Source: Dyadobacter sp. MSC1_007
GTDB taxonomy: Bacteria; Bacteroidota; Bacteroidia; Cytophagales; Spirosomataceae
Assembly: GCF_023667495.1 (NCBI RefSeq)
Contig: NZ_JAMOZL010000012.1
Location: 124,001-188,000 of the forward strand
Reading direction: 5' to 3'
DNA length: 64,000 nucleotides
Shown here: one piece after another, positions 32,602-47,876 of the stretch
Layout of the letters: each line of letters begins with the position of its first letter
Numbering within the stretch: position 1 is the first letter of the stretch
Position numbers and translations under genes: made by a program
The notes under the pieces: generated by a model
What the model was told of the DNA's origin: nothing
Database searches by the model: none
What the model saw: only the letters and a program-made list of their open reading frames with translations

Positions 32602-33231
32602 TTAAAATTGAAATGATTCGTAAAGCGTTGCTGCGCCGATGAGTACTGAAAATGTGCCGACCAGATAGTTGACAGTCCTGAGAAATAGCTCACGCCGTTC
32701 AGCAAACCGGTGGATTGAGAAGGTGAAAAGGTAGCCGTAAGCCGACATTGAGAGGATAATGCCGGCACTTTGCAGGATGATAATCCATAAAGCGGTCGTT
32801 GCATCGCTCGCGGCGAGCGTCAGCGCTACGGCACAGGCGCCGCCCGTTCCCGCAAGGCCATGGACCATCCCCACCCAAAACGAACGGCTCACTTTCCGCG
32901 CAGCCGGTGACGTTAAGGCAGGATCTTTTCGGAAGTTTCTCCGGATGGCCAAAATCCCAAGCCAGATCATCAGTGGGCCAATGAGCAATTCGACTTTACC
33001 GGCAATGTCCAGTGAAAGTGTCGATTTGAGTAATAGGACGAGAACCGCAAAAACGATAAGGGTAAAGGAATGTCCCAATGCCCAGTGCGACGACCGCCAG
33101 ATGAGCTTCCAGCGCTGCGCAGCAGTTTTGTTTTCCTCCGTAGCAAGTACCGAAACCGCAGCCATATGGTCGGGTTCGAACGAATGCTGCACGCCAAGGA
33201 GGAGTGAGTCAATAAGCAGGTAATGAATCAT
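32602..33231 (-). CDS. Cobalt/nickel transporter-like membrane protein (UreH/NicO type)
   Basis: A 209-residue inner membrane protein with six predicted helices. The first helix holds GVQHSFEPDHMAAV (His16, Asp21, His22), equivalent to the H-x4-D-H metal-recognition motif of NiCoT-type permeases. A second signature GMVHGLAGTGGACAVALTLAA is typical of UreH/NicO-like and related transporters. It follows the minus-strand cobalamin riboswitch by about 120 nt and precedes the BtuB-like receptor by 4 nt, so cobalt uptake for B12 synthesis is the best reading. A different divalent metal remains possible. Confidence 0.8.
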   Translation of the reverse strand: MIHYLLIDSLLLGVQHSFEPDHMAAVSVLATEENKTAAQRWKLIWRSSHWALGHSFTLIVFAVLVLLLKSTLSLDIAGKVELLIGPLMIWLGILAIRRNFRKDPALTSPAARKVSRSFWVGMVHGLAGTGGACAVALTLAASDATTALWIIILQSAGIILSMSAYGYLFTFSIHRFAERRELFLRTVNYLVGTFSVLIGAATLYESFQF

Positions 33232-33300: not shown

Positions 33301-33359
33301 CCTGCCGTTTCCTCTTGCCTTTCTTCCCGAAAGCAAAACCGGATATTTTCAACGGCAGG
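33301..33359 (-). promoter_or_regulatory. Expression platform of riboswitch 1 (competing stem)
   Basis: On the minus-strand RNA the aptamer 3' strand ACCTGCCGTT (33360-33351) is followed downstream by AACGGCAGG (33309-33301), its exact complement over 9 nt. Pairing of the two would compete with the aptamer closing stem, a plausible on/off switch. A smaller hairpin, CTTTC-GGGAA-GAAAG, sits between them (33333-33319) and has a close counterpart after riboswitch 3. No T-run is seen, so the mechanism is not obviously termination. Confidence 0.5.
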
Positions 33360-33586
33360 TCTTCTGGCTTGTTCAACTCTTGCGCCTTCCCTCGGGAATC
33401 TGAATTTTCAATGATTGAATGACTGAATGATTGAATAAAAAATATTCGGTCATTCAGTCATTCGGTCATTCAAAATTGACCGAAGTGACATCTTACAAGA
33501 GCATTGTTAATGAACTTACAGCAGCGGGTACTGCTCCGGATTTGCACCGGATTCCCTTTTAATCGCACCGAGGGCGCGAACCAATG
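33354..33586 (-). ncRNA. Cobalamin riboswitch 1 (cobalt transporter/btuB operon)
   Basis: Minus strand. Core motifs in order: AAAAGGGAATCCGGTG, CAAATCCGGAGCAGT, CCCGCTGCTGTAAG, then a peripheral region, then AAGCCAGAAGACCTGCC as the 3' closing strand. These match the cobalamin aptamer consensus (GGGAA..GGTG..AATCC..., CxGC..CTGTAA, GCCxGxAGACCTGCC). A stem GCTCTTG/CAAGAGT bounds a peripheral hairpin composed of 8-nt repeats (33411-33472). The RNA leads into the cobalt-type transporter and BtuB-like receptor genes, expected to be shut off when adenosylcobalamin is plentiful. Confidence 0.93.
33411..33472. repeat. Octamer-repeat hairpin inside riboswitch 1
   Basis: Left arm on the plus strand reads GATTGAAT, GACTGAAT, GATTGAAT (33413-33436), then a short A-run, then the right arm ATTCGGTC, ATTCAGTC, ATTCGGTC (33444-33467) and ATTCAAAA. 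The two arms are inverted copies of a degenerate 8-nt tandem repeat, so they form an imperfect hairpin in the RNA. Equivalent elements occur in the other two riboswitches. Confidence 0.85.
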
Positions 33587-33592
33587 AAGTCG

Positions 33593-33600
33593 CAAAGCTA
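33593..33600 (-). promoter_or_regulatory. -7 promoter box for riboswitch 1 transcript
   Basis: Minus strand TAGCTTTG, a full match to TAnnTTTG. TTTC lies about 18 nt upstream as a weak -33 element. Predicted start near 33586, about 30 nt before the conserved aptamer core. Confidence 0.55.
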
Positions 33601-33659
33601 GGGGTTTTTGAAAGATTGAAACCAGAAAAATGAACTATTAATCCTAACTTTACAGTCTG

Positions 33660-33864
33660 ACAAGTTCTTTACTTTCTTTCTCCAACAGAAAAAGAGTCTG
33701 CATTTCAATGCATTCCAGGGGAATCGTGTGAAAATCACGAGCTGTCGCGCAACTGTAAGAGGATTAATGAGTGAATGAGTGAATGAGTGAATGTCTATTT
33801 AAAATAGTCACTCATTCACTCATTCAAAATTCACTCATTAATTTCTCAAGCCAGGGCACCTGCC
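33660..33864 (+). ncRNA. Cobalamin riboswitch 2 (upstream of cob synthesis operon)
   Basis: Plus strand. Motifs: CCAGGGGAATCGTGTGAAAATCACGAGCTGTCGCGCAACTGTAAGAGG, then a long repeat hairpin, then CTCAAGCCAGGGCACCTGCC ending at 33864. This is the cobalamin aptamer consensus with a fully formed P3-type stem (CGTG/CACG). It is divergent from riboswitch 1, with about 60 nt between the two 5' ends. The first gene on its strand is cobB, but 678 nt away with a minus-strand toxin-antitoxin pair in between. The 5' boundary is approximate. Confidence 0.92.
33765..33842. repeat. Octamer-repeat hairpin inside riboswitch 2
   Basis: Left arm: three exact-to-near copies of GTGAATGA (33771-33778, 33779-33786, 33787-33794) preceded by ATTAATGA. 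Right arm: the inverse pattern TCACTCAT, TCACTCAT, TCAAAAT, TCACTCATTAAT (33808-33841). The loop contains TATTTAAAATA. The hairpin sits directly between the CTGTAAGAGG and CTCAAGCC motifs of the aptamer. Confidence 0.87.
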
Positions 33865-34008
33865 TTTTTTCTTGTTGACAATGCTTTCGCGGTTTGAAGC
33901 AGGGTCTGGTTTGGATATTTTTCGGGATTTTTTCCTGATACCGGGCGGTTTTGCCGTTCGGGAATACCTTTCTACTCTTTGCTGATCGCCATTCCGGATC
34001 AGCGCCAT
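33865..34008 (+). other. Leader downstream of riboswitch 2
   Basis: Starts with a T-run straight after ACCTGCC (33864-33870). A 34-codon frame at 33881-33985 (MLSRFEAGSGLDIFRDFFLI...) exists but I cannot show that it is translated. A 7-bp hairpin GCTGATC / GATCAGC (33981-34003) follows, just before the end of the converging toxin gene, and may stop transcription from either side although no long T-run is present. The region would be the expression platform, but the switch is not clear. Confidence 0.4.
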
Positions 34009-34341
34009 TCAGATTTTGATTTTTCTGGCCGCCCTGATCTTCGACGGGCTGCGACTGCTATGAATGATGTTTAGGACCTCAATGCGTTCAGCTCGAACGC
34101 GGTAAATGACGAGGTATTTGCCATGCGCGAGATTTCGGTACATACCGGTTTTGGAAGGAATAAACCGACAGATTGGATGAAGATGATAATCAGAGGAGAG
34201 ACTGTTGATCCGGCTATAAAGCTCTTCTATAAAAACGGTAGCGGAAGAAAAGGAGAAAGTTTCGAGGCCATACGAATAGATATTTTCGAGGCTTTCGATG
34301 GCAAGATCGCTGATGACTACTTCGCGAATTTCGATTTCCAT
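34009..34341 (-). CDS. ParE/RelE-family toxin
   Basis: A 110-residue toxin of the ParE/RelE superfamily: N-terminal EIREVVISDLAIESLENIYSYGLETFS helices, then the core HPICRFIPSKTGMYRNLAHGKYLVIYRVRAERIEVLNIIHSSRSP, with the typical Y-R-(x)-Y/V-R and final I-x-H-x-x-R. ParE members poison gyrase, RelE members cleave mRNA on the ribosome; the two cannot be told apart safely here. Its start overlaps the antitoxin gene by 25 nt. The pair runs antisense within the leader of the cobalamin operon. Confidence 0.88.
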   Translation of the reverse strand: MEIEIREVVISDLAIESLENIYSYGLETFSFSSATVFIEELYSRINSLSSDYHLHPICRFIPSKTGMYRNLAHGKYLVIYRVRAERIEVLNIIHSSRSPSKIRAARKIKI

Positions 34342-34481
34342 TCAGAGATTTTAACTTTTAAATCCTGCATAGAATGAAATTTGCCGTTTTGCGCTTCCTG
34401 GATCATCTTCTTCGCCTCAGCTTCGCTCATAGGCTGACCCGGAAGTGCATAGTCGGTTTTCAATGTTTTTGTTTTTCCCAT
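34317..34481 (-). CDS. Small antitoxin of the ParE/RelE pair
   Basis: A 54-residue protein: MGKTKTLKTDYALPGQP, then SEAEAKKMIQEAQNGKFHSMQDLK and VKISEWKSKFAK. The middle part, E-A-x-x-M-I-x-E-A-x-N-G-x-F-x-S, is the usual toxin-wrapping helix of ParD/RelB-like antitoxins of Bacteroidota. It starts upstream of the toxin gene and overlaps it by 25 nt. Its own promoter box (TATATTTG, 34493-34486) stops 4 nt before the ATG, so its mRNA may be leaderless. Confidence 0.82.
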   Translation of the reverse strand: MGKTKTLKTDYALPGQPMSEAEAKKMIQEAQNGKFHSMQDLKVKISEWKSKFAK

Positions 34482-34485
34482 AAAT

Positions 34486-34493
34486 CAAATATA
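34486..34493 (-). promoter_or_regulatory. -7 promoter box of the ParDE-like operon
   Basis: Minus strand TATATTTG, full match to TAnnTTTG; the -33 element is poor (TTCA at the expected distance). The box ends 4 nt before the antitoxin ATG, so the transcript should start at the start codon or within a base or two. Confidence 0.5.
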
Positions 34494-34542
34494 ACAATCG
34501 TTTGTGCGAAAATGAAATATCCGGTATGAATATAACCACCCT

Positions 34543-35931
34543 ATGACAAACCGTAAATCCAGTTTCCTTATTTCGGCGCCTTCTAGTAATTCGGGGAAAA
34601 CTACCCTGACTTTGGGGTTGTTGCGTGCGCTTAAAGATCGCGGTTACCGCGTGCAGCCATTCAAATGCGGGCCGGATTATATCGATACGATCCATCATAC
34701 TACCGCGGCAGGCGCACCAGGCATTAATCTGGACACTTTTATGTCGTCGGAAGCTCATGTGAAGAATATTTACCAAAGATATAGCGACTCGGCGGACGTG
34801 TCGGTGACGGAAGGCGTGATGGGGCTTTTCGATGGGGCCGACAAGATGCGGGGCAGCAGTGCCGAAATAGCGGCATTGCTAGATATCCCGGTTGTGCTGG
34901 TGATTAATGCACAGTCGATGGCTTATTCGGCCGCGCCTTTGATCTATGGGTTTAAAAACTTCTATCCGGGGATCCGGGTGGTTGGTGCGATCTTCAATTT
35001 TGTGAATACCGAGTCGCATTACCGGTTTTTAAAAGACGCTTGCGAGGATGCGGGTGTCGAAGCATTGGGATATTTGCCAAAAAACGAAGATTTACATATC
35101 CCGTCGCGGCATTTAGGGCTGCATATTTCTGCCGAAACCGACTATGACCACATCATCAGCAGATTAGCAGAAATTATCCTGAAAACGGTAAACCTGGAAC
35201 GGCTGCTCGAAGTCACGTCAGTGGATCAAATCTTTGAAAATGAATCTGTTTTAGTTGATCAAAAAAGAATAAAACAGGCCAATGCCAATGCACGAAACCT
35301 GCGGATAACGGTTGCCAGGGACGAGGCTTTTTCATTTTTTTACCATCAAAACATAGAGGCCTTGCAGACGATCGGCGAAGTGCGCTGGTTTAGTCCTTTG
35401 GATGATACCCAACTGCCTGAAACCGACCTGTTATACCTTCCGGGCGGCTATCCCGAGCTTTTTGCCAGAAAGCTTTCCGAAAATAAACCGATGTTGCGAA
35501 GTATTCATAATTACTGTGCGAACGGAGGTCTGACGTATGCCGAATGCGGCGGACTGATGTATCTGGGAAAAGCCATCACAACCAGTAAAGACGAAAGCTA
35601 CTCGATGGCGGGCGTTCTCGGTTGTGAAACCACACTTAAACATTCTAAAATGACGCTGGGCTATCGTACCCTGCATTGGGATGACCTGGAAATCCGGGGC
35701 CACGAATTTCATTATTCGGTATTTAAAGATCAGGATATGCAGGCCGAGCCTGCCCGTATTACCAATGCAAAATGCATCCCGGTCGACGCCCCGTTTTTTA
35801 GAACAAAAAATACATTTGCCTCTTACACACATCTTTACTGGGCCGACAAACCGGAATTTATCCAACACCTCATCAATAAATCCAACCTAAAAGCCGACGG
35901 CCGATTGCTGAAAGCCGACAGCCAAAAATGA
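34543..35931 (+). CDS. cobB: Cobyrinic acid a,c-diamide synthase
   Basis: Glutamine-dependent amidation of the a and c carboxyls of (hydrogeno)byrinic/cobyrinic acid, ATP-driven (CobB/CbiA). 462 residues: N-terminal P-loop-like [16 protein letters not shown] (11-26), [10 protein letters not shown], the [11 protein letters not shown] motif, and a C-terminal class I glutaminase domain with the nucleophile Cys335 ([12 protein letters not shown]) and a histidine in GHEFHYS. Full family length. First gene of the operon; its stop overlaps the cobN start (ATGA). Called cobB rather than cbiA because the cobaltochelatase next to it is of the CobN, late-cobalt type. Riboswitch 2 is 678 nt upstream. Confidence 0.95.
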
Positions 35932-38900
35932 AACGCCAACGCATTACACGTTCCGACGGAAAGGCCATTAACCTCGTGCAGCGCAGGGGTCATCTTTCGT
36001 ATTGCTACAATGCCTGTTGCTGCGGCCGCGTCGATCGGGGTTACGCGCCGGTTCCGGTTGAACTCTACAAAGGCGAATGGCTTCGTCGTAAACTCCGGAA
36101 TGTAGTGCATATGACCAAAGGTGGTTGTCTGGGGCCATGTACGCTCGCAAATGTCGTTACGCTGCTGTTTGACGGACATTCAGTATGGTTCCATTCTATT
36201 AACTATGATTGGCAGATCATCGCGATTTTCGATTATATCGAAAGTTTGGTCAAGGCCGACCGCTACCTTGTGCCGCCGTCGGACCTGGCGGAATATGTTT
36301 TTCAATTTTATACCTGGAAAGGTTCAGAAACATCCACGGAAAGTGGGTTAACTGCTCTGCCCACGGACGGTATCGTGTTCCTAACACACGCCGACACGGA
36401 CCTACTTACGCTGGATCGGGCGATGCAGTTGTTACCCGATGATTTTCCGAAAACTACGGGTATCAGTCTGCTGGCCATTAAGAGCGAGGAGCAGATGCAA
36501 CAACTGCTTCAAAGGGAAATTGCAGAGGCCAGGATCATTGTCATACGCATTCATGGTCGCCTGAGTAGTATTCCTGGTTTCAATGAGCTGGTAAAACTAG
36601 CTGGGCAACGCGGACAGCATTTAGTCGTGGTAAGCGGTACCGGAGAGTTGAACCCTGAATTTGCGGCCGTTTCAACGGTTTCGCCAGCCATTTTGCATGA
36701 AACTTTGGCCTATTTACAGGCCGGGGGTTATAACAACCTGATATCGCTTCTCAGCTTTTTGTCTGACCACCTGTTAATGACCGGTTTTGGCTCAGAAGCA
36801 CCGGTGGCCTTGCCGGAACACGGCATATATCATCCAGATTTGCCTGAAAATGCGGATAAGGCAGATTGGTTGAAAAATTACAATCCGGCGCTGGCAACTA
36901 TTGGGATTACTTTTTACAGGGCGCATTGGTTGAGCGGCAATACCAGTTTTGTCGATGCTATGGTCCGTTCGCTGGAAGAAAGAGGTGTGAATGTGTTGCC
37001 TGTTTTTACATCGTCCTTGAAATCGGTCAATTCCGAAACCGGAAAGCCCTGGGCGTTTAAATATTTTGAAAATACAGGCGCTGAGATTGATGTGCTTGTC
37101 AATACCATTTCGTTTGCGATGACGGATATCAAACCGACAGGGCACGATAATGCGCCTGCGCTCGTCAATTTGAATGTGCCGGTTTTGCAGGCGATCACAA
37201 GTGGAATGGGCCGCGGGCCCTGGGAATCGTCGGCGCGGGGACTTAATCCGCTCGACACTGCGATGAATGTGGCTATTCCTGAATTTGACGGCCGTATTAT
37301 CACGGTTCCGGTTTCGTTTAAAGAAAAAGGAAAAGATCACAAAGGTTATGAGCCGATTGACAATCGCGTCGATCGGGTAGCGGGATTGGCGGTGCGTTTT
37401 GCACAGTTGAGACATCTTAAAAACGCCGATAAAAAGATTGCATTCATTTTTACCAATTCCAATACAAAAGCTTCACAGATTGGCAATGCTGTGGGACTGG
37501 ACGCGCCAGCTTCTTTAATGAATATTCTTAGAGCTATGCAGGACGAGGGTTACCGGATTGATAATTTGCCCGATACCGGCACCCAACTGATCCATGAGTT
37601 GATCGACAGATGTGCATATGACGAGAATTTCCTGACACCCGGGCAACTTGCGCAAGCAGCCGGTCGGGTGTTGGCAACACAATATCAGGAATGGTTTGAG
37701 GAACTGCCTGATGTGCCTCGCCAAAAAATGCTGAAACAATGGGGTCCGGCACCGGGCGAAACCTATGTGCACGACGGCCATATTGCACTCGCTGGACTGG
37801 ATCTTGGCAATGCATTTGTGGCTTTGCAGCCGCCGAGAGGCTACGGTATGGACCCCGACGCGATTTACCATCAGCCCGATCTTCCACCTACCCACCACTA
37901 TTATGCATTATACCGGTGGCTGCGTGACGGCTGGGGTGCCGACGCCATTGTACACGTAGGGAAGCATGGCACGCTGGAATGGTTGCCCGGAAAGGGGATA
38001 GGGCTCTCCGAAAACTGTTTTCCCGACGCTTTTCTGGGCGATTTGCCATTATTTTACCCATTTATAATTAACGATCCCGGCGAAGGTTCGCAGGCTAAAA
38101 GACGTGCTCATGCCGTGGTGGTCGACCACCTGACGCCACCGATGACTTCCGCGGACAGTTATGGAGAACTGGCACAACTAACTCAGTTGGTGGACGAATA
38201 TTACCAGGTCGAAAGTCTGGACCCATCGAAATTACCGCTGCTGCAAAGGCAAATCTGGGAGCTGATCAAACAAACGAATCTTGATACCGACCTCGCGGCA
38301 ATGCTCAGCCGCGACCATGGCGACCATAAGCACGACTGGGACGATGATATGACGCCGGAAGGTGTGCCGGTAACCCTGACCGAAATGGATGGAAAGGACA
38401 TTGCACATTTAATAGAGGATATTGATGGTTACCTGTGCGAATTAGGCGCTGCACAGATCCGGAACGGGTTGCATACTTTGGGCCAAATGCCCGAGGGTGA
38501 TGCTTTGATTGATATGTTACAAGCACTTACGCGCCTCCCGAATGGCCCTGTGCCCGGATTGCAGAAGGAGCTTGCCATTGTGTATGATTTTGATATTGAA
38601 ACACTTTATCAACAAAAAGGACAAAAATTAGAACGTGCAAACGAAGATTTTGTGGCATGGGCAGGCAGGCCGGTGATTACCAGTGCCGACGCACTCGAAG
38701 TGCTTGACGAAATGGCCAGCCATCTGATCCGGCTTTTTGAATACCACAGGTTTAATGTGAAATCGGTTGATCAGGTGGTTTTTGAAGGCGTAAATCAAAA
38801 TCCTGAGAAATCTGAGTTGGACGGCATCCGGAATGTTTTGAAGTTCATCTCCCAGGAACTTGTGCCGAACCTTGCAAGAACGGATGAAGAGATTACAAAC

Positions 38901-40199
38901 TTACTACACGGCCTTTCGGGCGGATATGTTCCTGCTGGTCCAAGTGGTGCGCCCACCCGGGGAATGGCGCATATCCTGCCTACGGGACGGAATTTTTATG
39001 CTGTGGATCCGCGAGTCCTTCCTTCAAAAGCCGCGTGGGAAGTGGGGCAGCAACTCGCCAGGGAAGTGCTTGACAGGCATTTGAAGGAAACCGGCCGCTA
39101 TCCCGAAAGCGTGGGAATCAGCATTTGGGGCACGAGCGCCATGCGTACACACGGGGACGATGTAGCTGAAGTGCTCGCATTACTGGGCGTGAGGCCCCTT
39201 TGGCAGGCGGAAAGCAGGCGGATAACCGGTATCGAACTCATCGGATTGGAAGAGCTCGGCCGTCCGCGCATTGACGTTACTACGCGAATCAGCGGGTTTT
39301 TCAGGGACGCATTTCCGCATTTGATTGAGTTGATGGATGATGCGGTACAAATGATCATCGCCGCGGATGAGCCCTTGGAAGAAAATTTTGTCAGAAAGCA
39401 TTATCTGAAAGAGCTGGTTGAATTGCAGAAAGACGACGCATTCTCGATCGAAGAGGCCGAGGAGAAGGCATCGTACCGCATTTTCGGGGCGGCTCCGGGA
39501 AGTTACGGTGCCGGGATATTGCCTTTGATCAATGAAAAAAACTGGCAGACGGATGCCGACTTTGCGCAGGCATATATTAACTGGGGCGGATATGCCTATT
39601 CAAAAAGTGCCCAGGGAGTGGATGCGCGCCCTGAGTTCACCCGGCGACTGGCAGGTGTGGAGGTTGCGCTGCACAATCAGGATAACCGCGAGCATGATTT
39701 GTTCGACAGCGACGATTACCTGCAATTTCACGGCGGAATGATAGCCACAATCCGTAACCTTACCGGTCAGCAGCCCCGCCACTACTTTGGCGATTCGCAG
39801 GACCCGTCGCGGCCGGTTGTGAGGGATTTGAAGGAAGAAACTTTACGCGTATTCCGCTCGCGGGTGGTTAACCCCAAATGGATCGAAAGCATTCAGAAAC
39901 ATGGCTATAAAGGCGGTTTGGAACTGACTGCGACGGTCGACTATCTTTTTGGATACGACGCTACCGCGCAGGTCGTGGACGACTGGATGTACGAAAAGGT
40001 GGCCGAAACCTACGCATTGGATGCCGCAATGCAGCGATTTTTTGAGGAAAACAATCCATGGGCGCTCAATGCCATTGCCGAACGGTTGCTCGAAGCTACC
40101 CAACGCGGCATGTGGGAAAATCCGACGGAGGAAACACTGGACGGTCTAAAAAACCTGTATTTAAAAAGCGAATCATTACTCGAATCGCGAACCGAATAG
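35928..40199 (+). CDS. cobN: Cobaltochelatase CobN with N-terminal ferredoxin-like domain
   Basis: Large subunit that binds hydrogenobyrinate a,c-diamide and inserts cobalt. CobN proper begins near residue 150 and shows the family blocks: [21 protein letters not shown]-type motif (residues near 680), [62 protein letters not shown] and SYGAGI. At 1423 residues it is longer than usual CobN (about 1250). The extra N-terminus (1-145) is a thioredoxin-fold [2Fe-2S] ferredoxin-like domain with Cys26, 30, 31, 32 and a C67-LGP-C71 pair (GGCLGPC). The extension is in frame, with no stop or restart. Cytoplasmic; works with the ChlI/ChlD-like protein encoded next. Confidence 0.95.
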
Positions 40200-40226
40200 A
40201 CAACAGAAGCTTGAAATGGCATTAAA

Positions 40227-42047
40227 ATGATATTATACCCGTTTTCCGCGATAGTCGGACAGGATAAATTGAAGAAGGCACTATTGCTTTGTGCCGTAAA
40301 CCCCGGCATAGGCGGAGTGCTTATCAAAGGCGAGAAAGGGACAGCAAAAAGTACTGCCGTACGAGGGTTGGCGGCTGTGATGCCTGCACTCGAAGCCAGC
40401 GGTGAGCCGGTTCCATTCGTGGATTTGCCGCTCGGTGCTTCGGAGGATCGCGTGTTAGGCAGTCTGGATATTGAGGCTGTTCTTTCCGATAAAACAAAGA
40501 AATTACTACCTGGTTTGCTCGCTTCTGCGCACGAGGGCGTCCTTTATATTGATGAAGTCAATTTGCTTGCGGATCATTTGGTCGATGTCTTACTTGACGT
40601 TGCTGCCTCTGGTGTCAATACCGTTCAGCGGGAAGGATTATCTGTGAGCCATCCGGCGCGTTTTGTGTTGATAGGTACCATGAACCCGGAAGAAGGTAAT
40701 CTACGGCCGCAATTTCTGGACAGGTTCGGATTGATGGTAGAGGTAGGCGCACAAACGGATGTTCAGGCGAGGACGGAAGTTGTGAGAAGGCGGATCGCAT
40801 TCGAGCAGGACCCGGTTAAATTTGGAGTGTTGTGGGAATATGAGCAGCAATTGGTACAAAAAAAGATCACTGCGGCAAAACAGTTATTACCCGAAGTACA
40901 AATGCCCGATGGTTTACTGAGCATGATCAGCCAATTATGCATTGAATGGGGTGTGGGCAGCTTACGGGCCGATATTGTGTTATACAAAACGGCCATCACA
41001 CTAACGGCATTAAACAATCGGCGTAAAGTAACGGCCGACGATGTTCATGAGGCGGCAGAGCTGGTATTAATGCATAGAAAAGGAAAGAAAACACCGCCTC
41101 CACAGTCTAACAATTCGTCAAATGGGGCCGATGACACGCCTATGGCGCCCCGTCAAAAGGAAAACGCTTTGGAGAAAGATCAATCTGATGATTGTGGAGA
41201 GGGGAATTGTGATAAAAGTGATGATGATGAACAGGTAGCGGATATTAATTTTAGAATAAATGTTCTAAAATTAGAAGAAAAAGTGCCGTCGGCATCAGCA
41301 GCCTTGCCGGAAGGCAAGGCGGTAAAAGCAAAAGCTACTGTTAAAGGATATCAGATCAGAACAGAAAAAAATGCTTTCGCAACGGAGATAGCCATTAATG
41401 ATACCGTTATCTATGCATTGACCCGTAATTCTGATCGGTTAGAAGTGGGTAGAGACGATTTATTTGAAAAAGTGAAGAACGGAAAAACAGTTCATCTCAT
41501 TCTGTTTGTGGTAGATGCGTCCGGCTCAATGGCGGCGGGAAAGCGTATGGAGGCTGTCAAAGGATGTGTGATGAGTTTGTTGCAAGATGCATATCAAAAG
41601 CGTAATACCGTTGGCGTAATTGCCTTCCGGGGCGTGGAAGCCACTGTTCTGCTTGAACCAACCCGCAGCATCGAACTGGCCGAACAAGCTTTGGAAACAC
41701 TTCCCACGGGAGGCCGAACGCCATTGCCCCATGCATTGCAACTGTTGCAAAAAGTACTGCAATTTAAAAGTTATGACGCTAATATACAGACTTTTATAGT
41801 GTTACTGACCGACGGGAAAGCAAATGTGCCACTCGCTGGTGGAGACGCATGGCAACAGTCGCTTGACCTAAGCCGGAGGATAGCGGAAGCCGGGCATCGC
41901 GCATTGGTACTGGATACCGAAAGCGGTTATGTCCGCCAGGGAAAAGCGAAGGCACTGGCCGACGCGTTAGGCGCAGAATATCTTCCGCTTGACGAACTTT
42001 CAACTGACGAAATAATGGACTCACTTGCCGGAAGGATAGTAATCTAA
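40227..42047 (+). CDS. Cobaltochelatase/magnesium-chelatase-type ATPase, ChlI-ChlD fusion
   Basis: 606-residue AAA+ plus von Willebrand A protein that powers metal insertion by CobN. Walker [10 protein letters not shown] at 35-43, Walker [12 protein letters not shown], sensor motif [11 protein letters not shown], lid about 230-290. A Ser/Asp/Glu-rich linker (about 290-350) precedes a VWA domain with the MIDAS motif D430-A-S-G-S-M and TDGKANVPL. It combines the roles of BchI and BchD in one chain; no CobS/CobT type subunits are present, consistent with the CobN plus ChlID form of the aerobic chelatase. 27 nt after cobN. Confidence 0.94.
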
Positions 42048-42052
42048 GGACA

Positions 42053-43522
42053 ATGGATTTGAAAAAATTAAGACCGATCATGTTCGTCGGCACCGGTTCT
42101 GACGTTGGGAAAAGCGTGATTGCGGCTGGTTTTTGCAGGATTTTTAAACAGGATGGATACGAGCCCGCTCCCTTTAAAGCTCAGAATATGTCCCTGAATA
42201 GCTTTGTTACACCCGACGGACTGGAACTGGGACGAGCGCAGGCAGTACAAGCAGAAGCGGCACAAATCCCTTGTGAATCGGATATGAACCCGGTATTGCT
42301 CAAACCGACCAATGACAAGTCCTCCCAGGTCGTTTTGAACGGAAAGCCGGTGGGTAATCAGTCTGCTTACGAATATTTTATGGCGAATGATCGCCGCGAG
42401 CTCTTCACAGCTGTTAAAGATGCATTTGACAGGCTTGCTTCGAAATATTCACCCATTGTAATGGAAGGTGCAGGTAGTATTTCGGAGCTTAATTTAAAAC
42501 ACCGGGATATTACGAATCTTAGAATGGCCGCGCATGCGGGAGCCGCCGTTTACCTCGTCGCGGATATCGATAAGGGCGGTGTATTTGGTAGCGTTTACGG
42601 CACCATTGCACTACTAACGCCGGAGGAGCGCGCTTGTATGAAGGGTATTATTATTAATAAATTTCGGGGTGACGGAAGGTTGTTCGAGGACGGCAAAAGA
42701 AAGCTCGAAGAGCTGACTGGATTGCCGGTTATAGGCATTTTGCCCTATTTCCGAGACATTCATATAGAGCAGGAGGATTCCGTTTCGCTGGAATTGAAGT
42801 ACAAATCGGCCGTGGAGGGAAAGGTGAATATCGCAGTGGTTTTGCTCAAACGGCTTTCCAATTTTACTGATTTCGACAGATTGGAAAAAGACCCGCGAGT
42901 CAACCTGTTTTACTCGAACGATCCATCCGAAATTAGTAAGGCTTCAATTGTCATTATTCCGGGAAGCAAAAATACGATTGGGGATATGCTCGCGATCAAA
43001 AACAATGGAGTGGCAAAAGCCATTTATGATGCACATAAAGCGGGAAAGACTGTGATTGGTATTTGCGGCGGTTACCAAATGCTCGGAGAAAGTATAATGG
43101 ACCCACATCATATTGAGGGGGATATTGAGCAAATCCCCGGGCTGGGTTTGCTGCCGGTCACGACGGTTCTGCAACCGGAAAAAACTACATTGCAATGCAT
43201 CTTCGAGTTCCAGGGAATGGAAGGGACAGGCTATGAGATCCATATGGGAGAAACGACAGCATTGAGCCCGGGCCAACCGGTTGCAACGCTAGCGGACGGG
43301 CGACGTGATGGGTATTACCTTGATCACAAGACATGGGGAAGTTATATTCACGGAATATTGGATAATAGTGCGGTGATCAACAGCATTCTTGCTCCTTATA
43401 CCGACGAAAAGGGTATACATTATGACTATAAGAAGTTTAAAGAGGGGCAGTATGACAAGCTCGCCGAATTGCTTCGCTCACATATCCATATGGATTTGAT
43501 TTACAAAAGTTTAGCTATATAG
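42053..43522 (+). CDS. cobQ: Cobyric acid synthase
   Basis: Amidates carboxyls b, d, e and g of adenosylcobyrinic acid a,c-diamide. 489 residues. N-terminal dethiobiotin-synthetase-like domain with FVGTGSDVGKSVIAAGFCRIF and the cobyric acid signature FKAQNMSLNSFVT; central VMEGAGSISELNLKHRDITNLRMA; C-terminal glutaminase domain with nucleophile Cys338 (VIGICGGYQMLGE) and GYEIHMGET. Starts 5 nt after the chelatase ATPase gene. All expected blocks are present. Confidence 0.97.
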   Translation: MDLKKLRPIMFVGTGSDVGKSVIAAGFCRIFKQDGYEPAPFKAQNMSLNSFVTPDGLELGRAQAVQAEAAQIPCESDMNPVLLKPTNDKSSQVVLNGKPVGNQSAYEYFMANDRRELFTAVKDAFDRLASKYSPIVMEGAGSISELNLKHRDITNLRMAAHAGAAVYLVADIDKGGVFGSVYGTIALLTPEERACMKGIIINKFRGDGRLFEDGKRKLEELTGLPVIGILPYFRDIHIEQEDSVSLELKYKSAVEGKVNIAVVLLKRLSNFTDFDRLEKDPRVNLFYSNDPSEISKASIVIIPGSKNTIGDMLAIKNNGVAKAIYDAHKAGKTVIGICGGYQMLGESIMDPHHIEGDIEQIPGLGLLPVTTVLQPEKTTLQCIFEFQGMEGTGYEIHMGETTALSPGQPVATLADGRRDGYYLDHKTWGSYIHGILDNSAVINSILAPYTDEKGIHYDYKKFKEGQYDKLAELLRSHIHMDLIYKSLAI

Positions 43523-43525
43523 AAA

Positions 43526-44548
43526 ATGTTATATGGGCACGGGGATGACGGATACCGGTATGACAGGCAGATCATTGCTGATTTTAGTACGAATGTCTGG
43601 TATGGCGGAGAGCCAGTGGGGTTGAAGGAATATGTTTTCGGACGTTGGTCGCAGGTCAACCGTTATCCGGAAGTGGTCGCTGAAAGCTTGCGGGAAAAAA
43701 TAGCGCGTCATCATCAGATCTCAGCCGGTCAGGTTTTGGTGTGCAGCGGTACGACTGAAAGCATTTATTTGGTCGCGCAACTGTTCACCGGCAAGCGAAC
43801 GACGATTGTCACACCTTCATTTTCTGAATATGAAGACGCCTGCCAGTTGTTCGACCATGAGATAACATATTTGAACTGGCAGGATGCGCTTGAAATACCG
43901 CGATTAAAAACTGATCTGGTATTTATTTGTAGTCCTAATAATCCCACCGGACTGCTATTTCAGGATTTGCAATATTGGCTGAAACTCAATCCGCAATGTC
44001 TTTTTGCTGTTGACGAGGCGTTCATTGATTTTACCTGGGAGCGGAATTCGGTTATTTCTTTAATGAAGAAATTCCCTAATCTGTTGATTATGCGTTCGCT
44101 TACAAAAACGTACGCGATCCCGGGCCTGCGTCTGGGTTACGTATTGGCACACAAGGATATTTTTAGTCAACTGATCAGGATCAAACAACCATGGACGGTC
44201 AATGCGATGGCACTGGCTGCCGGCGACTTTATCTTTGATCATTTTGAAAGCATTCAGCCTCCTGTTTCGCAACTTTTAGAAGATAAAAGAACGTTCGTTC
44301 AAGAATTAAGTAAGATAGAAGCTTTGCAGATTTACAAAAGTGATACCCATTTCTTTTTGGGGAGAACAATGGTACGCAATGCGGCCCAATTGAAAGAATA
44401 CCTCGTAGAAAAGCACGGGTTGTTGATCCGTGATGCATGTAATTTCCGAGGTCTTACCCGGCAACACTTTCGCCTGGCCACCCAAAGCCCGGAAAGCAAT
44501 GAGAAAATAGTTAACGCATTGAGAGAATGGCAGAAGCTTTATTACTGA
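43526..44548 (+). CDS. cobD: Threonine-phosphate decarboxylase (CobD-type aminotransferase)
   Basis: PLP-dependent class I/II aminotransferase fold of 340 residues. The PLP lysine is Lys194 (RSLTKTYAIPGLRLGY), the cofactor aspartate Asp163 (FAVDEAFIDF), and SPNNPTGLL is the usual substrate-binding loop. N-terminal YGHGDDGYRY and DFSTNVWYGG match the CobD/HisC group opening (YHGG..). In B12 context it makes (R)-1-amino-2-propanol phosphate from threonine phosphate. HisC activity is the alternative on sequence alone; position between cobQ and cbiB decides. Overlaps cbiB by 22 nt. Confidence 0.88.
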   Translation: MLYGHGDDGYRYDRQIIADFSTNVWYGGEPVGLKEYVFGRWSQVNRYPEVVAESLREKIARHHQISAGQVLVCSGTTESIYLVAQLFTGKRTTIVTPSFSEYEDACQLFDHEITYLNWQDALEIPRLKTDLVFICSPNNPTGLLFQDLQYWLKLNPQCLFAVDEAFIDFTWERNSVISLMKKFPNLLIMRSLTKTYAIPGLRLGYVLAHKDIFSQLIRIKQPWTVNAMALAAGDFIFDHFESIQPPVSQLLEDKRTFVQELSKIEALQIYKSDTHFFLGRTMVRNAAQLKEYLVEKHGLLIRDACNFRGLTRQHFRLATQSPESNEKIVNALREWQKLYY

Positions 44549-45459
44549 TTCTGCCGTTGATAGCGGGGTATTTGCTGGATTTTTGGCTAGGGGATCCGGA
44601 CGGCTGGCCTCATCCGGTGCGTATTTTTGGGAATGCAATCGCGATTGGAGAGAAGTTTCTGAATGGAGACCGTTTTCGGTTTTTGAAAGGAGCGCTGTTG
44701 AGTTTGGTGCTGATAGCAAGTACCTTCCTGTTTTTTTACTACCTGAATCAATGGCTAGCGGAAGTTGCCTGGTTGTTTTTAGTTATAAACAGCATTTTCG
44801 TTTACTACGGGCTGGCTAATAGGTCCTTGATCACCGAAGGGCGTAAAGTATTTTCAGTGCTGGAAAACGAAGGTCTTGAAGCCGGGCGCAGGCAACTTTC
44901 CAGGATTGTAGGGCGGGATACTTCTGGGCTGACTGCGCAGCAAATACGCATCGCAGTATTGGAAACGATGTCGGAGAACCTGAGTGACGGGGTAGTAGCG
45001 CCGTTATTTTATTATGCAATCGGTGGGCTTCCTGGCATGATGGCTTATAAAATGATCAATACTATGGATTCGATGCTGGGCTACCGGAGCGAACGGTATG
45101 AATGGTTCGGAAAATTCGCTGCACGGCTAGACGATGTCGCTAATTTCGTTCCCGCCCGTTTGACAGCATGCCTGATGATCCTTGTTACAGGGAGTGCAAA
45201 AGGTTTTGAATTTGTCCTGAAATTCGGGAATAAACATAAGAGTCCCAATGCGGGTTACCCGGAGGCGGCATTGGCAGGGATACTAGATTGCAGGTTCGGC
45301 GGCCCGAATATCTATCACGGGGTTTTGGTCGAAAAGCCGTTTATAGGCGAAAGGGAAAGGGGCATCGCAAATGCTGAAATTGATCTCGTCAGCGCAGTTA
45401 ATCAGCGGGTATGCCTTGCAATGGTGGTTTTGGTGGTCATCACAATTTACCTTCTTTGA
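44527..45459 (+). CDS. cbiB: Adenosylcobinamide-phosphate synthase
   Basis: Integral membrane enzyme of 310 residues attaching the aminopropanol arm to adenosylcobyric acid. Features: LIAGYLLDFWLGDPDGWPHPVRIFGNAI at the N-terminus (the P-H-P-V-R motif), the loop RQLSRIVGRDTSGLTAQQIRIAVLETMSENLSDGVVAPLFYYAIGG, KMINTMDSMLGYRSERYEWFGKFAARLDDVANFVPARLTA, and the closing PNAGYPEAALAGILDCRFGGPNIY. Five or so membrane segments. Last gene of the first cob block; its 3' end overlaps the converging nuclease gene by 20 nt. Confidence 0.96.
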   Translation: MAEALLLILPLIAGYLLDFWLGDPDGWPHPVRIFGNAIAIGEKFLNGDRFRFLKGALLSLVLIASTFLFFYYLNQWLAEVAWLFLVINSIFVYYGLANRSLITEGRKVFSVLENEGLEAGRRQLSRIVGRDTSGLTAQQIRIAVLETMSENLSDGVVAPLFYYAIGGLPGMMAYKMINTMDSMLGYRSERYEWFGKFAARLDDVANFVPARLTACLMILVTGSAKGFEFVLKFGNKHKSPNAGYPEAALAGILDCRFGGPNIYHGVLVEKPFIGERERGIANAEIDLVSAVNQRVCLAMVVLVVITIYLL

Positions 45460-46348
45460 CCTTATTTACAAATTCGATTGATTCGCCAACGAAGTGGGCA
45501 ATTTCTTCAACGGAATACGGAGTTTCTTTTAAAAGCTTTTTTGTAAAGGCAATTGCTTTTTGCTGTCCACCCTGTTCTATTCCAATCTGAATGCCTTCCT
45601 TCTTTGTCCTGTCCAGTATGAATTCCTCGATTCCCATAGTCTTTCTTTTTTGAGTGATGTGATCCAGTGCTTCTTCAAATTTACGTTCTGTTTCGCTGTT
45701 TTCAAAACGGACATAATACTTTATAAATGTCATCAGTTTCCTAATTTTCGTTTTGCTGATCTGTTGAGAAAGCAATCGTCGTGCCAGGTCTGTTTTTAGT
45801 AGAAGCGCCTCTGTTTCAGTTAATTTTTTACTTTTTAATGCAGTTTTTGCGGCTAGCACAACCAATGCGAAAGGATTGTCGCTGGCAAGGAGCTCCTCCT
45901 CATGCTGGTCTGCGATTTTGTAATAATTGAACTCATAAGTTACTCTGGTCCCCCAGAATGAACGCTCGTATTTTTCCGGACAGAAAGCGTGGTCGTCGTT
46001 GGTCAGAATGGCGAATGCGGAGATGGGTTTGTCGTATTTGTCCAGGACACGATAATAGTAAGCAAACATGCGTTTTGCGAAATTCGGGTCGCGGTAGCCC
46101 TGTACTTCGATATGGACAAGTATCCATTGATCCTCACCGTCTTTACAATAAACTTTTACTAATTTATCGACAAAGCGCGTAGCATATTCCTCGTTTTCTG
46201 GCGGGAAAAGTTGTTCTAGCTCCTTATCCAGGAATTCAAACCCTTTACTAAAATCAAAAACAGAAGTGGCTTCGGGATGGAAGAATAAAAGGAAATCGTC
46301 AAAAACATCTTCCAGGATCGATTTCCAGAGGGTATCGTCTCTTTTCAT
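45440..46348 (-). CDS. Rpn-family PD-(D/E)XK nuclease/putative transposase
   Basis: About 302 residues. An N-terminal PD-(D/E)xK-like core typical of the Rpn (recombination-promoting nuclease) family: WKSILEDVFDDFLLFFHPEA, VDKLVKVYC, WILVHIEVQGYRDPNFAKRMFAYYYRVLDKYDKPISAFAILTNDD. The H-I-E-V-Q and following residues form the presumed metal site. The C-terminus ends with KKLLKETPYSVEEIAHFVGESIEFVNKVKEGKL, a common ending of this family. Start ATG at 46348 chosen because the longer frame runs back through riboswitch 3. It lies antisense between the two cob gene blocks, so it is probably an insertion. Confidence 0.85.
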   Translation of the reverse strand: MKRDDTLWKSILEDVFDDFLLFFHPEATSVFDFSKGFEFLDKELEQLFPPENEEYATRFVDKLVKVYCKDGEDQWILVHIEVQGYRDPNFAKRMFAYYYRVLDKYDKPISAFAILTNDDHAFCPEKYERSFWGTRVTYEFNYYKIADQHEEELLASDNPFALVVLAAKTALKSKKLTETEALLLKTDLARRLLSQQISKTKIRKLMTFIKYYVRFENSETERKFEEALDHITQKRKTMGIEEFILDRTKKEGIQIGIEQGGQQKAIAFTKKLLKETPYSVEEIAHFVGESIEFVNKVKEGKL

Positions 46349-46398
46349 GTATGTAAGTGTGTGGAGTAAAACGATGCAATGTAAAACAATAAAATCAT

Positions 46399-46406
46399 TA
46401 GTTTTG
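46399..46406 (+). promoter_or_regulatory. -7 promoter box for riboswitch 3 transcript
   Basis: TAGTTTTG, full match to TAnnTTTG; no good -33 element. Predicted start near 46411, about 30 nt before the aptamer core, the same geometry as at riboswitch 1. The divergent nuclease gene starts 50 nt away on the other strand. Confidence 0.5.
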
Positions 46407-46410
46407 CGCA

Positions 46411-46657
46411 TCACAAGGTTTGCGCATTCGTGCGCAATTAAAAGGGAATCCGGTGTAAATCCGGAACAGTCTCCGCTGCTGTAAGTCCAAAACAACGGCT
46501 CTTGCAAAATGTCACTTGGAAGTCAATGAGTAAATGAGCTAATGAGTGAATGGGTGAGTATTCTTATTTAATAACATTCACCCGTTCACTCATTCGTACA
46601 TTCACTCATCAAATGTCCGGGGAAGGCGCAAGAGTTGGACGAGTCAGAAGACCTGCC
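46411..46657 (+). ncRNA. Cobalamin riboswitch 3 (btuF-cobUTSC operon)
   Basis: Plus strand. Motifs in order: AAAAGGGAATCCGGTGTAAATCCGGAACAGT, CTCCGCTGCTGTAAG, a flanking stem GGCTCTTGC/GCAAGAGT, a long repeat hairpin (46525-46610) and GAGTCAGAAGACCTGCC ending at 46657. Closely similar to riboswitch 1 in both core and flanking stem. It precedes btuF and the nucleotide-loop genes. Predicted to repress them when B12 is available. Confidence 0.93.
46525..46610. repeat. Octamer-repeat hairpin inside riboswitch 3
   Basis: Left arm AATGAGTA, AATGAGCT, AATGAGTG, AATGGGTG (46525-46556). Right arm CATTCACC, CGTTCACT, CATTCGTA, CATTCACT, CATC (46575-46610), the inverse of the left. Loop AGTATTCTTATTTAATAA. 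Four degenerate 8-nt units per arm. Confidence 0.87.
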
Positions 46658-46678
46658 TTCTAACGCTTTAAACAATGG

Positions 46679-46693: not shown

Positions 46694-46703
46694 CCAGTGC
46701 ACG

Positions 46704-47876
46704 ATGATTTTTAAAAAGACGATTGCAGTTCTTCTGCTGCTCGGCGCAATGGCCGCTTGCAGCACTTCTTCTTCGCTCTACGAGAAGAGCGATACACAGT
46801 ATTCCGGCAAAGATTTATTCCCTGAAAAAGTGACGCTGGCGCATGCGCGGGGCTTTTCCATTTCTTATCATGGCCATTACAAAATCGTCAAAATCGTCAG
46901 TCCGTTTGAAAAAAGTACGGATACGATGTCATATGTGCTTCTGCAACGCGGCAAATCGCGTCCGCCTGGTTATGAGGACAGCCAATTGATTGAAATTCCG
47001 GTGCGCAGCCTGGTGGCGATGTCTTCCCTGCACATTGGATTAGTTGGTTTTCTGGAATCGGAGGAAATCCTGACCGGATTGGGCAATCTTAAATATGTGT
47101 CGTCGCCCAAAGTCCTGAAAAGGATTGCGGCGGGCAATATTATGGAAGTGGGTAAGGATCAGGGATTTAATGAAGAGCTACTCATTACAATGCACCCCGA
47201 TCTTATCATGGCTACCGGGACTCCAACATCCAAAATGGCACGTTACGCTTCACTCAATCAGGCGGGAATCCCTGTTATGGTCAATTCAGAATGGGTGGAA
47301 ACTACACCACTTGCCCGTGCCGAATGGGTGAAGCTACTGGCAGCGCTTCTGAACAAGGAAAAGTTTGTGAATAAGCAGTTTAAAAATGTGGAGGCGGAAT
47401 ACAACCGGCTGGCGGGACTCACTAAAAATGTTACGACCAAACCCAGCCTCATCACCGGCATGAACTCCAAAGATGCGTGGTTCGTGCCAAATGGTAATAG
47501 TTATGTAAACCGGTTTTTCCGGGATGCGGGCGCCTCATACCATTGGGCAGAAACGAAGGCTACCGGAAGTTTGCCATTGAGCTTCGAAACTGTTTATCCT
47601 GTGGCTTTGAATGCTGACTACTGGCTGAACGTCAGTATCGGAAATGTGCAAACGAAAAAAGATATTCTGGCCCGCGATGCAAGGTATGCCGATTTCAAAG
47701 CATTTAAATCCGGGAAAATATACAGCTATAATAGCCGTATGAATGCACAAGGTGCAAACGACTACTGGGAGTCCGGTGCCGTCAACCCGCAGCTGGTTTT
47801 AGCGGATCTTATTAAAATTATCCATCCGGAGTTGCTGCCGGATCATCGTCTTTTTTATTATAAATCAATCAATTAA
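46704..47876 (+). CDS. btuF: Cobalamin-type ABC transporter substrate-binding lipoprotein (BtuF-like)
   Basis: A 390-residue periplasmic binding protein. Lipobox MAAC (Cys19), then a class III (TroA/BtuF) fold: RSLVAMSSLHIGLVGFLESEEILTGLGNLKYVSSPKVLKRIAAGNIMEVGKDQGFNEELLITMHPDLIMATG, a long connecting helix, and the second lobe with AGASYHWAETKATGSLPLSFETVY. The ATG at 46704 is preceded by AGAAAGG; the frame extends upstream into the riboswitch and is not used. B12 or cobinamide as ligand is inferred from riboswitch 3 and the cob genes that follow directly. No BtuC or BtuD gene is adjacent. Confidence 0.88.
   Translation: MIFKKTIAVLLLLGAMAACSTSSSLYEKSDTQYSGKDLFPEKVTLAHARGFSISYHGHYKIVKIVSPFEKSTDTMSYVLLQRGKSRPPGYEDSQLIEIPVRSLVAMSSLHIGLVGFLESEEILTGLGNLKYVSSPKVLKRIAAGNIMEVGKDQGFNEELLITMHPDLIMATGTPTSKMARYASLNQAGIPVMVNSEWVETTPLARAEWVKLLAALLNKEKFVNKQFKNVEAEYNRLAGLTKNVTTKPSLITGMNSKDAWFVPNGNSYVNRFFRDAGASYHWAETKATGSLPLSFETVYPVALNADYWLNVSIGNVQTKKDILARDARYADFKAFKSGKIYSYNSRMNAQGANDYWESGAVNPQLVLADLIKIIHPELLPDHRLFYYKSIN

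Follow-up and report, generated by a model that had tools for sequence, protein, structure and literature searches.

A dispersed octamer repeat family recurs at one peripheral helix tip of predicted cobalamin riboswitches in Dyadobacter

A 64-kb stretch of the Dyadobacter sp. MSC1_007 genome (contig NZ_JAMOZL010000012.1, positions 124,001 to 188,000; hereafter “the window”) contains a locus for the synthesis and uptake of cobalamin. In it lie three predicted cobalamin riboswitches, each of which carries a hairpin built from degenerate 8-nt tandem repeats. The octamers form a family, GAATGANN, that is dispersed in the genomes of this genus, varies from species to species and recurs above chance in cobalamin riboswitches, where it caps one particular peripheral helix while the riboswitch still matches the full RF00174 model of Rfam. 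The hairpins are genuine, beyond chance and more general than the original prediction, which was made from the letters of this DNA alone, could show. We consider it probable, at roughly 60%, that they belong to a family of short-tandem-repeat hairpins resident in Dyadobacter genomes, the other copies of which lie mostly in spacers, and that slippage, copying between the arms and a filter for inserts that fold back would account for their form.

Octamer hairpins in the three riboswitches of the window

We searched the window with the covariance model RF00174, for which the gathering score is 31.5 bits. Three matches were obtained, all above that score (54.6 to 102.1 bits) and all spanning model positions 1-189, that is, the whole model. 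Cobalamin-related genes lie downstream of all three. By sequence, these elements are RF00174 cobalamin riboswitches, for which ligand binding and regulation are predicted. The riboswitches and their hairpins are as follows.

33337-33600, minus strand: predicted cobalamin riboswitch 1 (RF00174, 98.5 bits, E 2.3e-23)
33400-33482, minus strand: octamer hairpin insert of riboswitch 1 (arms approximately 33403-33438 and 33443-33479; units GAATGACC, GAATGACT and GAATGATT)
33377-33382 (CTCTTG) and 33496-33501 (CAAGAG), minus strand: host stem framing the insert of riboswitch 1
33677-33881, plus strand: predicted cobalamin riboswitch 2 (RF00174, 54.6 bits)
33763-33843, plus strand: octamer hairpin of riboswitch 2, replacing the usual distal arm (arms approximately 33763-33794 and 33806-33843; unit GAATGAGT)
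46399-46674, plus strand: predicted cobalamin riboswitch 3 (RF00174, 102.1 bits)
46520-46618, plus strand: octamer hairpin insert of riboswitch 3 (arms approximately 46523-46559 and 46574-46610; units GAATGAGT and GAATGGGT plus degenerate copies)
46499-46504 (CTCTTG) and 46629-46634 (CAAGAG), plus strand: host stem framing the insert of riboswitch 3

The inverted octamer arrays that the original prediction had placed in each riboswitch, and the CTCTTG/CAAGAG frame that it had described as common to riboswitches 1 and 3, were both confirmed at these positions. A three-unit pattern, GAATGANNGAATGANNGAATGA, allowed up to three mismatches, matched the window 14 times, and all 14 matches fell inside the three hairpins (0.16 expected); this count was reached by none of 100 shuffles. 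Folding of the inserts with RNAfold gave minimum free energies of -33.8 for insert 1 (z = -6.5) and -39.6 for insert 3 (z = -7.9), with 60 shuffles each. The hairpins of riboswitches 1 and 3 lie between (C/T)CACTNN and GGGAAGG in the Rfam model and lengthen the distal peripheral helix at its tip. The distal arm is missing from riboswitch 2, in which a shorter helix just past CTGTAAG bears the hairpin instead.

The units had been taken to differ among the three riboswitches. They are instead phases and variants of one octamer: their differences concern the phase and the variable positions of GAATGANN, which makes them members of a single family. The idea of three unrelated repeat units was therefore rejected, a single family accounting for the window and for the dispersed copies described below.

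A dispersed repeat family in Dyadobacter genomes

The window comes from a 7.45-Mb assembly (G000; genomes are numbered G and loci L below), in which the octamer family gave 142 overlapping matches, 87 forward and 55 reverse, while a reversed-pattern control gave none. Other genomes of the genus contained matches in 28 of 36 cases, with 0 to 295 hits per genome, and the copy number and flavor of the family differed between species. Outside the genus only one of 22 genomes had hits, nine in number and all on one strand. The octamer repeat is therefore no peculiarity of riboswitches but a dispersed and mostly intergenic family, and a repeat restricted to riboswitches was rejected.

The G000 matches that were listed, 100 of the 142, form 43 clusters; reading of the 39 surrounding loci gave 41 or 43 clusters with slightly different detectors. 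With a simple open reading frame caller, 40 of 41 clusters were intergenic, lying between gene pairs that were oriented in the same direction (23), convergently (11) or divergently (6). Many of these arrays stretch almost from gene to gene. Twenty-two of the 43 clusters were one-armed. No other known RNA overlapped a dispersed copy in the 39 loci, the sole match being a tRNA about 2.8 kb from an array.

The dispersed copies are modular. Their octamers are combined with words of other kinds, one of 22 nt (GAATGAGCCGCCGTGGAACGGG), one rich in CGCCGG and others rich in purines, and the copies often carry the outer flanks AATTTTGAATGA and TCATTCAAAATT. At L093, L095, L106, L113 and other loci, GAATGAGCCGCCGTGGAACGGG and a CATCGCACCGGCGACCCGGTCA-like word were interspersed with the octamers; a CATCGCACCGGCGACCCGGTCA-like word also occurs within riboswitch inserts of other species (G031 and G033). 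Similar octamer stretches were seen near the starts of contigs in G026 (C1:118, C16:13 and C28:13) and G004 (C4:189, C5:197, C7:189 and C12:82), as if they adjoined multi-copy sequence that breaks the assembly.

Of 30 genomes read at each of two orthologous spacers, 16 had octamers at one and 14 at the other; in the remaining genomes these spacers held other repeat words or were short. Among such orthologous spacer loci (L252, L246, L280 and L299) the short repeats that fill one spacer differ strongly from species to species, and several of them seem to fold back, so the filling of spacers with repeats may be common throughout the genus.

Over-representation in cobalamin riboswitches

A total of 160 RF00174 matches were found in 41 genomes and 150 of these were listed. 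We read 86, picked mainly by length, which together with the three window copies (two of them also among the 150) makes 89 riboswitches. The remaining 62 listed were 138-239 nt long; of 15 that we checked, 14 had no octamers and one (L164) had a single pair, and three further riboswitches (L308-L310) had none. With up to two mismatches allowed, octamer pairs were present in 55 of the 89 riboswitches, from 26 genomes, compared to five in the reversed control; at one mismatch the figures were 54 and zero.

The array lay in the distal tip, between CACTGG and CCGGGAAGG (CACUGG...CCGGGAAGG in the RNA), in all but two of the 55 riboswitches with octamers. The exceptions were a riboswitch of G010 and the window's riboswitch 2. 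The 53 inserts at the distal tip were 38-188 nt long, with a median of 99. Compared to a standard RF00174 riboswitch, these elements match the whole model and have an intact core, but the octamer hairpin replaces the tip of the distal peripheral helix. G000 itself has five RF00174 matches, and the two outside the window have no octamer repeat.

Over-representation was assessed in eight low-copy Dyadobacter genomes with complete position lists, in which 18 of 87 clusters lay in cobalamin riboswitches compared to 0.14 expected, the expectation assuming an even spread over a non-coding share of 10%. Seven of the eight genomes had two or three such copies, and the eighth, G013, had none. The eight were drawn from 16 low-copy genomes; those not entered were G001, G022, G029 (no cluster), G007, G019, G023, G032 and G026. 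Cobalamin riboswitches thus hold octamer arrays apparently far above chance. The original prediction had suggested that a small repeat element might target this site. The octamer repeat is over-represented in these riboswitches but not confined to them, and the genome search that it had proposed found octamers scattered outside riboswitches, though not without a preference for them.

Other structured RNAs gave negative results. None of the 103 matches to thiamine pyrophosphate (TPP) riboswitches exceeded 121 nt, under stricter Infernal filters that could lose forms with long inserts, and no octamers lay within the aptamer at any of the 30 TPP loci checked. RNase P RNA measured 394-416 nt in all 41 matches from 41 genomes and so shows no insert by length, again under filters that could lose long-insert forms. 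Within the cobalamin riboswitches, the repeat was present in none of 15 CCCATTG-class members read and in none of the 200-nt-class members checked. Of the 80 named loci, 36 were scanned for riboswitches; named loci and numbered genomes overlap, and they are therefore not independent samples.

These counts bear on the possibility that the pattern reflects neutral space only, functionless loops and spacers filling with repeats and riboswitch tips being merely tolerant of them. The gene-to-gene filling of spacers, the occupation of the same places by other repeat words and the modest riboswitch excess in G000 are consistent with this. On the other hand, it does not readily explain why seven of the eight low-copy genomes have two or three clusters in cobalamin riboswitches, or why, judged by length, inserts are absent from TPP riboswitches and RNase P RNAs although these RNAs have peripheral loops as well. 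We regard neutral filling as a possible explanation, though not one that we would favor.

Gain, loss and change between species

The gene that follows riboswitch 1 was used for a tree of 29 species, of which 20 had an octamer insert in this riboswitch, seven had a bare tip and two had another insert. With presence labels set by eye, this tree requires six changes in the presence of the insert, three of them forced by well-supported branches. Within the D. koreensis clade the riboswitch arrays are inherited and can be aligned, and the order of units in the 3' arm differs in some species.

Unit flavor was followed with GAATGATA, which occurs in the riboswitch inserts of 11 genomes. All of these except G006 (10 of 11) also have GAATGATA outside riboswitches, compared to five of the 17 genomes whose inserts are without it. 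As the GAATGATA flavor follows the clade, the copies in riboswitches change along with the rest of the family in that lineage; clade membership and unit flavor are inseparable as causes in these data.

Both arrangements, at the distal tip and on the shorter helix, were found among orthologs from other Dyadobacter. In the closer relatives, riboswitch 2 had a bare tip (L023), a half copy (L006) or, as in the window, a two-armed hairpin (L026 and L008). Given these three states, the short-helix site was probably filled apart from the usual site. In three other orthologs of riboswitch 2 (L010, L015 and L016) the whole distal arm had shrunk to a short helix that was without octamers. Beyond the genus, two cobalamin riboswitches of Siphonobacter (L034, 3127-3409, and L038, 3135-3406) carried a hairpin of another repeat type on a different peripheral stem, the repeat of L034 being GAGTTTAG-like.

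Such a distribution might also be produced by a mobile element of the REPIN or MITE type that inserts preferentially into hairpin loops, the riboswitch tip being one target. REP/REPIN and MITE-type elements are dispersed intergenic palindromes, and the Dyadobacter repeat is likewise dispersed, intergenic and palindromic. The frequent flanks AATTTTGAATGA/TCATTCAAAATT of the dispersed family, the repeated gain or loss at one loop and the second site at the tip of the shorter helix (riboswitch 2 of the window, L026 and L008) would fit insertion of this kind. Unlike these elements, however, the Dyadobacter arrays consist of an octamer in varying number and have no fixed unit length or body: copies differ in length and content, no defined length with terminal repeats was found, and one-armed and mixed-word copies are common. 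In addition, orthologous spacers were refilled with different words rather than simply being either empty or occupied by one element. We consider a mobile element quite improbable.

Pairing of the arms

The copies in riboswitches fold back more often than the dispersed ones. Fifty-two of 54 riboswitch copies were two-armed compared to 21 of 43 dispersed copies in G000 (p = 8.5e-8), and the innermost loop had a median of 20 in the riboswitches and 59 in the dispersed copies (p = 2.9e-5). The excess of two-armed copies and their shorter loops suggest that mainly inserts that fold back are tolerated.

If single base pairs of the arms were under selection in the RNA, a preference for G-U over A-C mismatches would be expected. 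The arms of the 53 riboswitch inserts contained 39 G-U and 57 A-C mismatches, as compared to 26 and 3 in a 5' hairpin of the same riboswitches (Fisher p = 1.9e-6). Dispersed copies, read on an arbitrary strand, had 33 and 21. RNAalifold on eight orthologs returned a covariation term of 0.3, with two-sided changes in seven of 78 consensus pairs; only one of the seven (columns 138-233) was in the insert. We read the lack of a G-U preference together with the scant covariation as DNA-level likening of the arms combined with a coarse folding filter, and not as base-by-base selection in the RNA. Copying of one inverted arm onto the other, or a comparable process acting on the DNA, would by inference maintain their similarity. 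The original prediction had proposed that the stem grows and shrinks by slippage while base pairing is retained. Octamer number, order and flavor do change between species with the foldback kept, but RNA-level constraint on single pairs is not borne out by the mismatch counts.

These data also speak to the possibility that selection acts on the hairpin as an adjustable part of the switch, in which the length or stability of the arms would tune aptamer folding or co-transcriptional timing and slippage under selection sets the length. Over-representation in cobalamin riboswitches, the two-armed foldback and vertical retention across the D. koreensis clade with arms that still pair are what such a part would be expected to show. 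It is harder to reconcile with the bare tips and other inserts (7 of 29 and 2 of 29, respectively) among riboswitch 1 orthologs, with arms that lack a G-U preference and take only one of the seven two-sided changes, and with the absence of the repeat from the 15 CCCATTG-class riboswitches read and the 200-nt-class members checked. A selected part is, in our view, unlikely.

Resident copies of a repeat family as the best explanation

The explanation that we prefer is that the hairpins are resident copies of the dispersed octamer family. Arrays would lengthen and shorten by slippage, and the two arms would be kept alike by DNA-level copying between them. The riboswitch tip may keep its inserts because one that folds back merely lengthens a stem pointing away from the core; such an insert would be inherited together with its riboswitch, whereas the copies in spacers would turn over. 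If the longer stem affects folding or regulation at all, we would expect the effect to be small.

Several observations weigh against this explanation. No slippage or copying event was directly seen. The riboswitch share of 18 of 87 is raised by the choice of eight genomes from 16 low-copy ones, since two of those left out, G001 and G022, each have one cluster and in both it is outside riboswitches. The excess in G000 is smaller, with two of 43 clusters among the matches listed compared to 0.07 expected under the same assumed non-coding share of 10% (p = 0.002, computed for 42), and as the genomes are related, the counts are not independent events. With a stricter three-unit detector in other genomes, the excess of two-armed copies shrank strongly, to 9 of 18 in riboswitches and 15 of 69 elsewhere (p = 0.035). 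Rfam may miss long or unpaired inserts, and the two-armedness and short loops are therefore perhaps in part an effect of detection. Finally, the peripheral host stem has 12 G-U and 11 A-C mismatches, so the missing G-U preference may simply mark peripheral stems.

It could be speculated that Dyadobacter cobalamin riboswitches are the preferred long-term home of a genome-wide repeat, which would serve as an evolutionary module through which a self-folding arm is continually gained, lost and altered at a single position of the sensor RNA. Heritable length variants would result with the core untouched, possibly with regulatory consequences. We put this forward tentatively, as an idea that could hold but that we do not expect to.

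Precedents and significance

Repeats of the short tandemly repeated repetitive (STRR) type offer a comparison. Vioque (1997) reportedly described STRR sequences in the RNase P RNA of heterocyst-forming cyanobacteria, and the Dyadobacter repeat resembles these rnpB sequences in being a dispersed short tandem repeat within a conserved RNA gene. As in that type, a short unit is repeated head to tail and dispersed, and it lies inside structured RNA genes, here cobalamin riboswitches; the unit, however, is of 8 nt and not a heptamer, and Dyadobacter RNase P RNA has no such insert by length (41 of 41 genomes). Closer still is the tRNA-Leu(UAA) group I intron of Nostoc and Calothrix, whose P6b stem-loop consists of degenerate heptamers (TDNGATT and NNTGAGT) that pair with each other (PMC4476775). 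The Nostoc trnL P6b contains one of two heptamer classes and undergoes whole-unit insertions and deletions on one or both sides as well as replacement of one class by the other (PMC4476775). Both this intron and the Dyadobacter riboswitches have a peripheral stem of a structured RNA made of short, degenerate, mutually pairing repeats; the cyanobacterial case concerns heptamers in an intron, whereas Dyadobacter, a member of the Bacteroidota, has octamers in a ligand-sensing riboswitch class and in several riboswitches per genome.

The cyanobacterial heptamer hairpins of the trnL intron and rnpB are the nearest precedents; the Dyadobacter hairpins work in a similar way but differ in host RNA, unit length and phylum, and they extend repeat hairpins in a peripheral helix of a structured RNA to riboswitches. 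Among the open-licence PMC papers listed in our searches we found no report of riboswitch stems built from repeats or of the Dyadobacter octamer repeat.

Fast-evolving short tandem repeats can reside in a riboswitch with its core undisturbed, as they can in the cyanobacterial trnL intron, and do so repeatedly at one helix tip within one genus. Because one and the same switch occurs naturally both armless and with arms of differing length, the role of peripheral stems in cobalamin switching becomes directly testable. The data also suggest that pairing of arms may persist without the usual RNA-level signature, which matters where covariation is taken as proof of structure in repeat-rich stems.

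Genes adjacent to the riboswitches

The genes near the three riboswitches are as follows.

32602-33231, minus strand: NicO/HupE-like metal transporter gene following riboswitch 1 (the Pfam hits to NicO and HupE_UreJ_2 are weak and fall short of the curated thresholds)
After riboswitch 1: TonB receptor gene
34009-34341, minus strand: ParE-like toxin gene between riboswitch 2 and cobB, on the opposite strand (PF05016, E 6.4e-10)
At 34543, plus strand (the strand of riboswitch 2): cobB/cbiA gene after riboswitch 2; cobN also follows this riboswitch
46701-47876: periplasmic-binding-protein gene downstream of riboswitch 3 (Peripla_BP_2, E 3.9e-20; probably BtuF-like)

The ParE-like gene thus parts riboswitch 2 from its presumed target, cobB.

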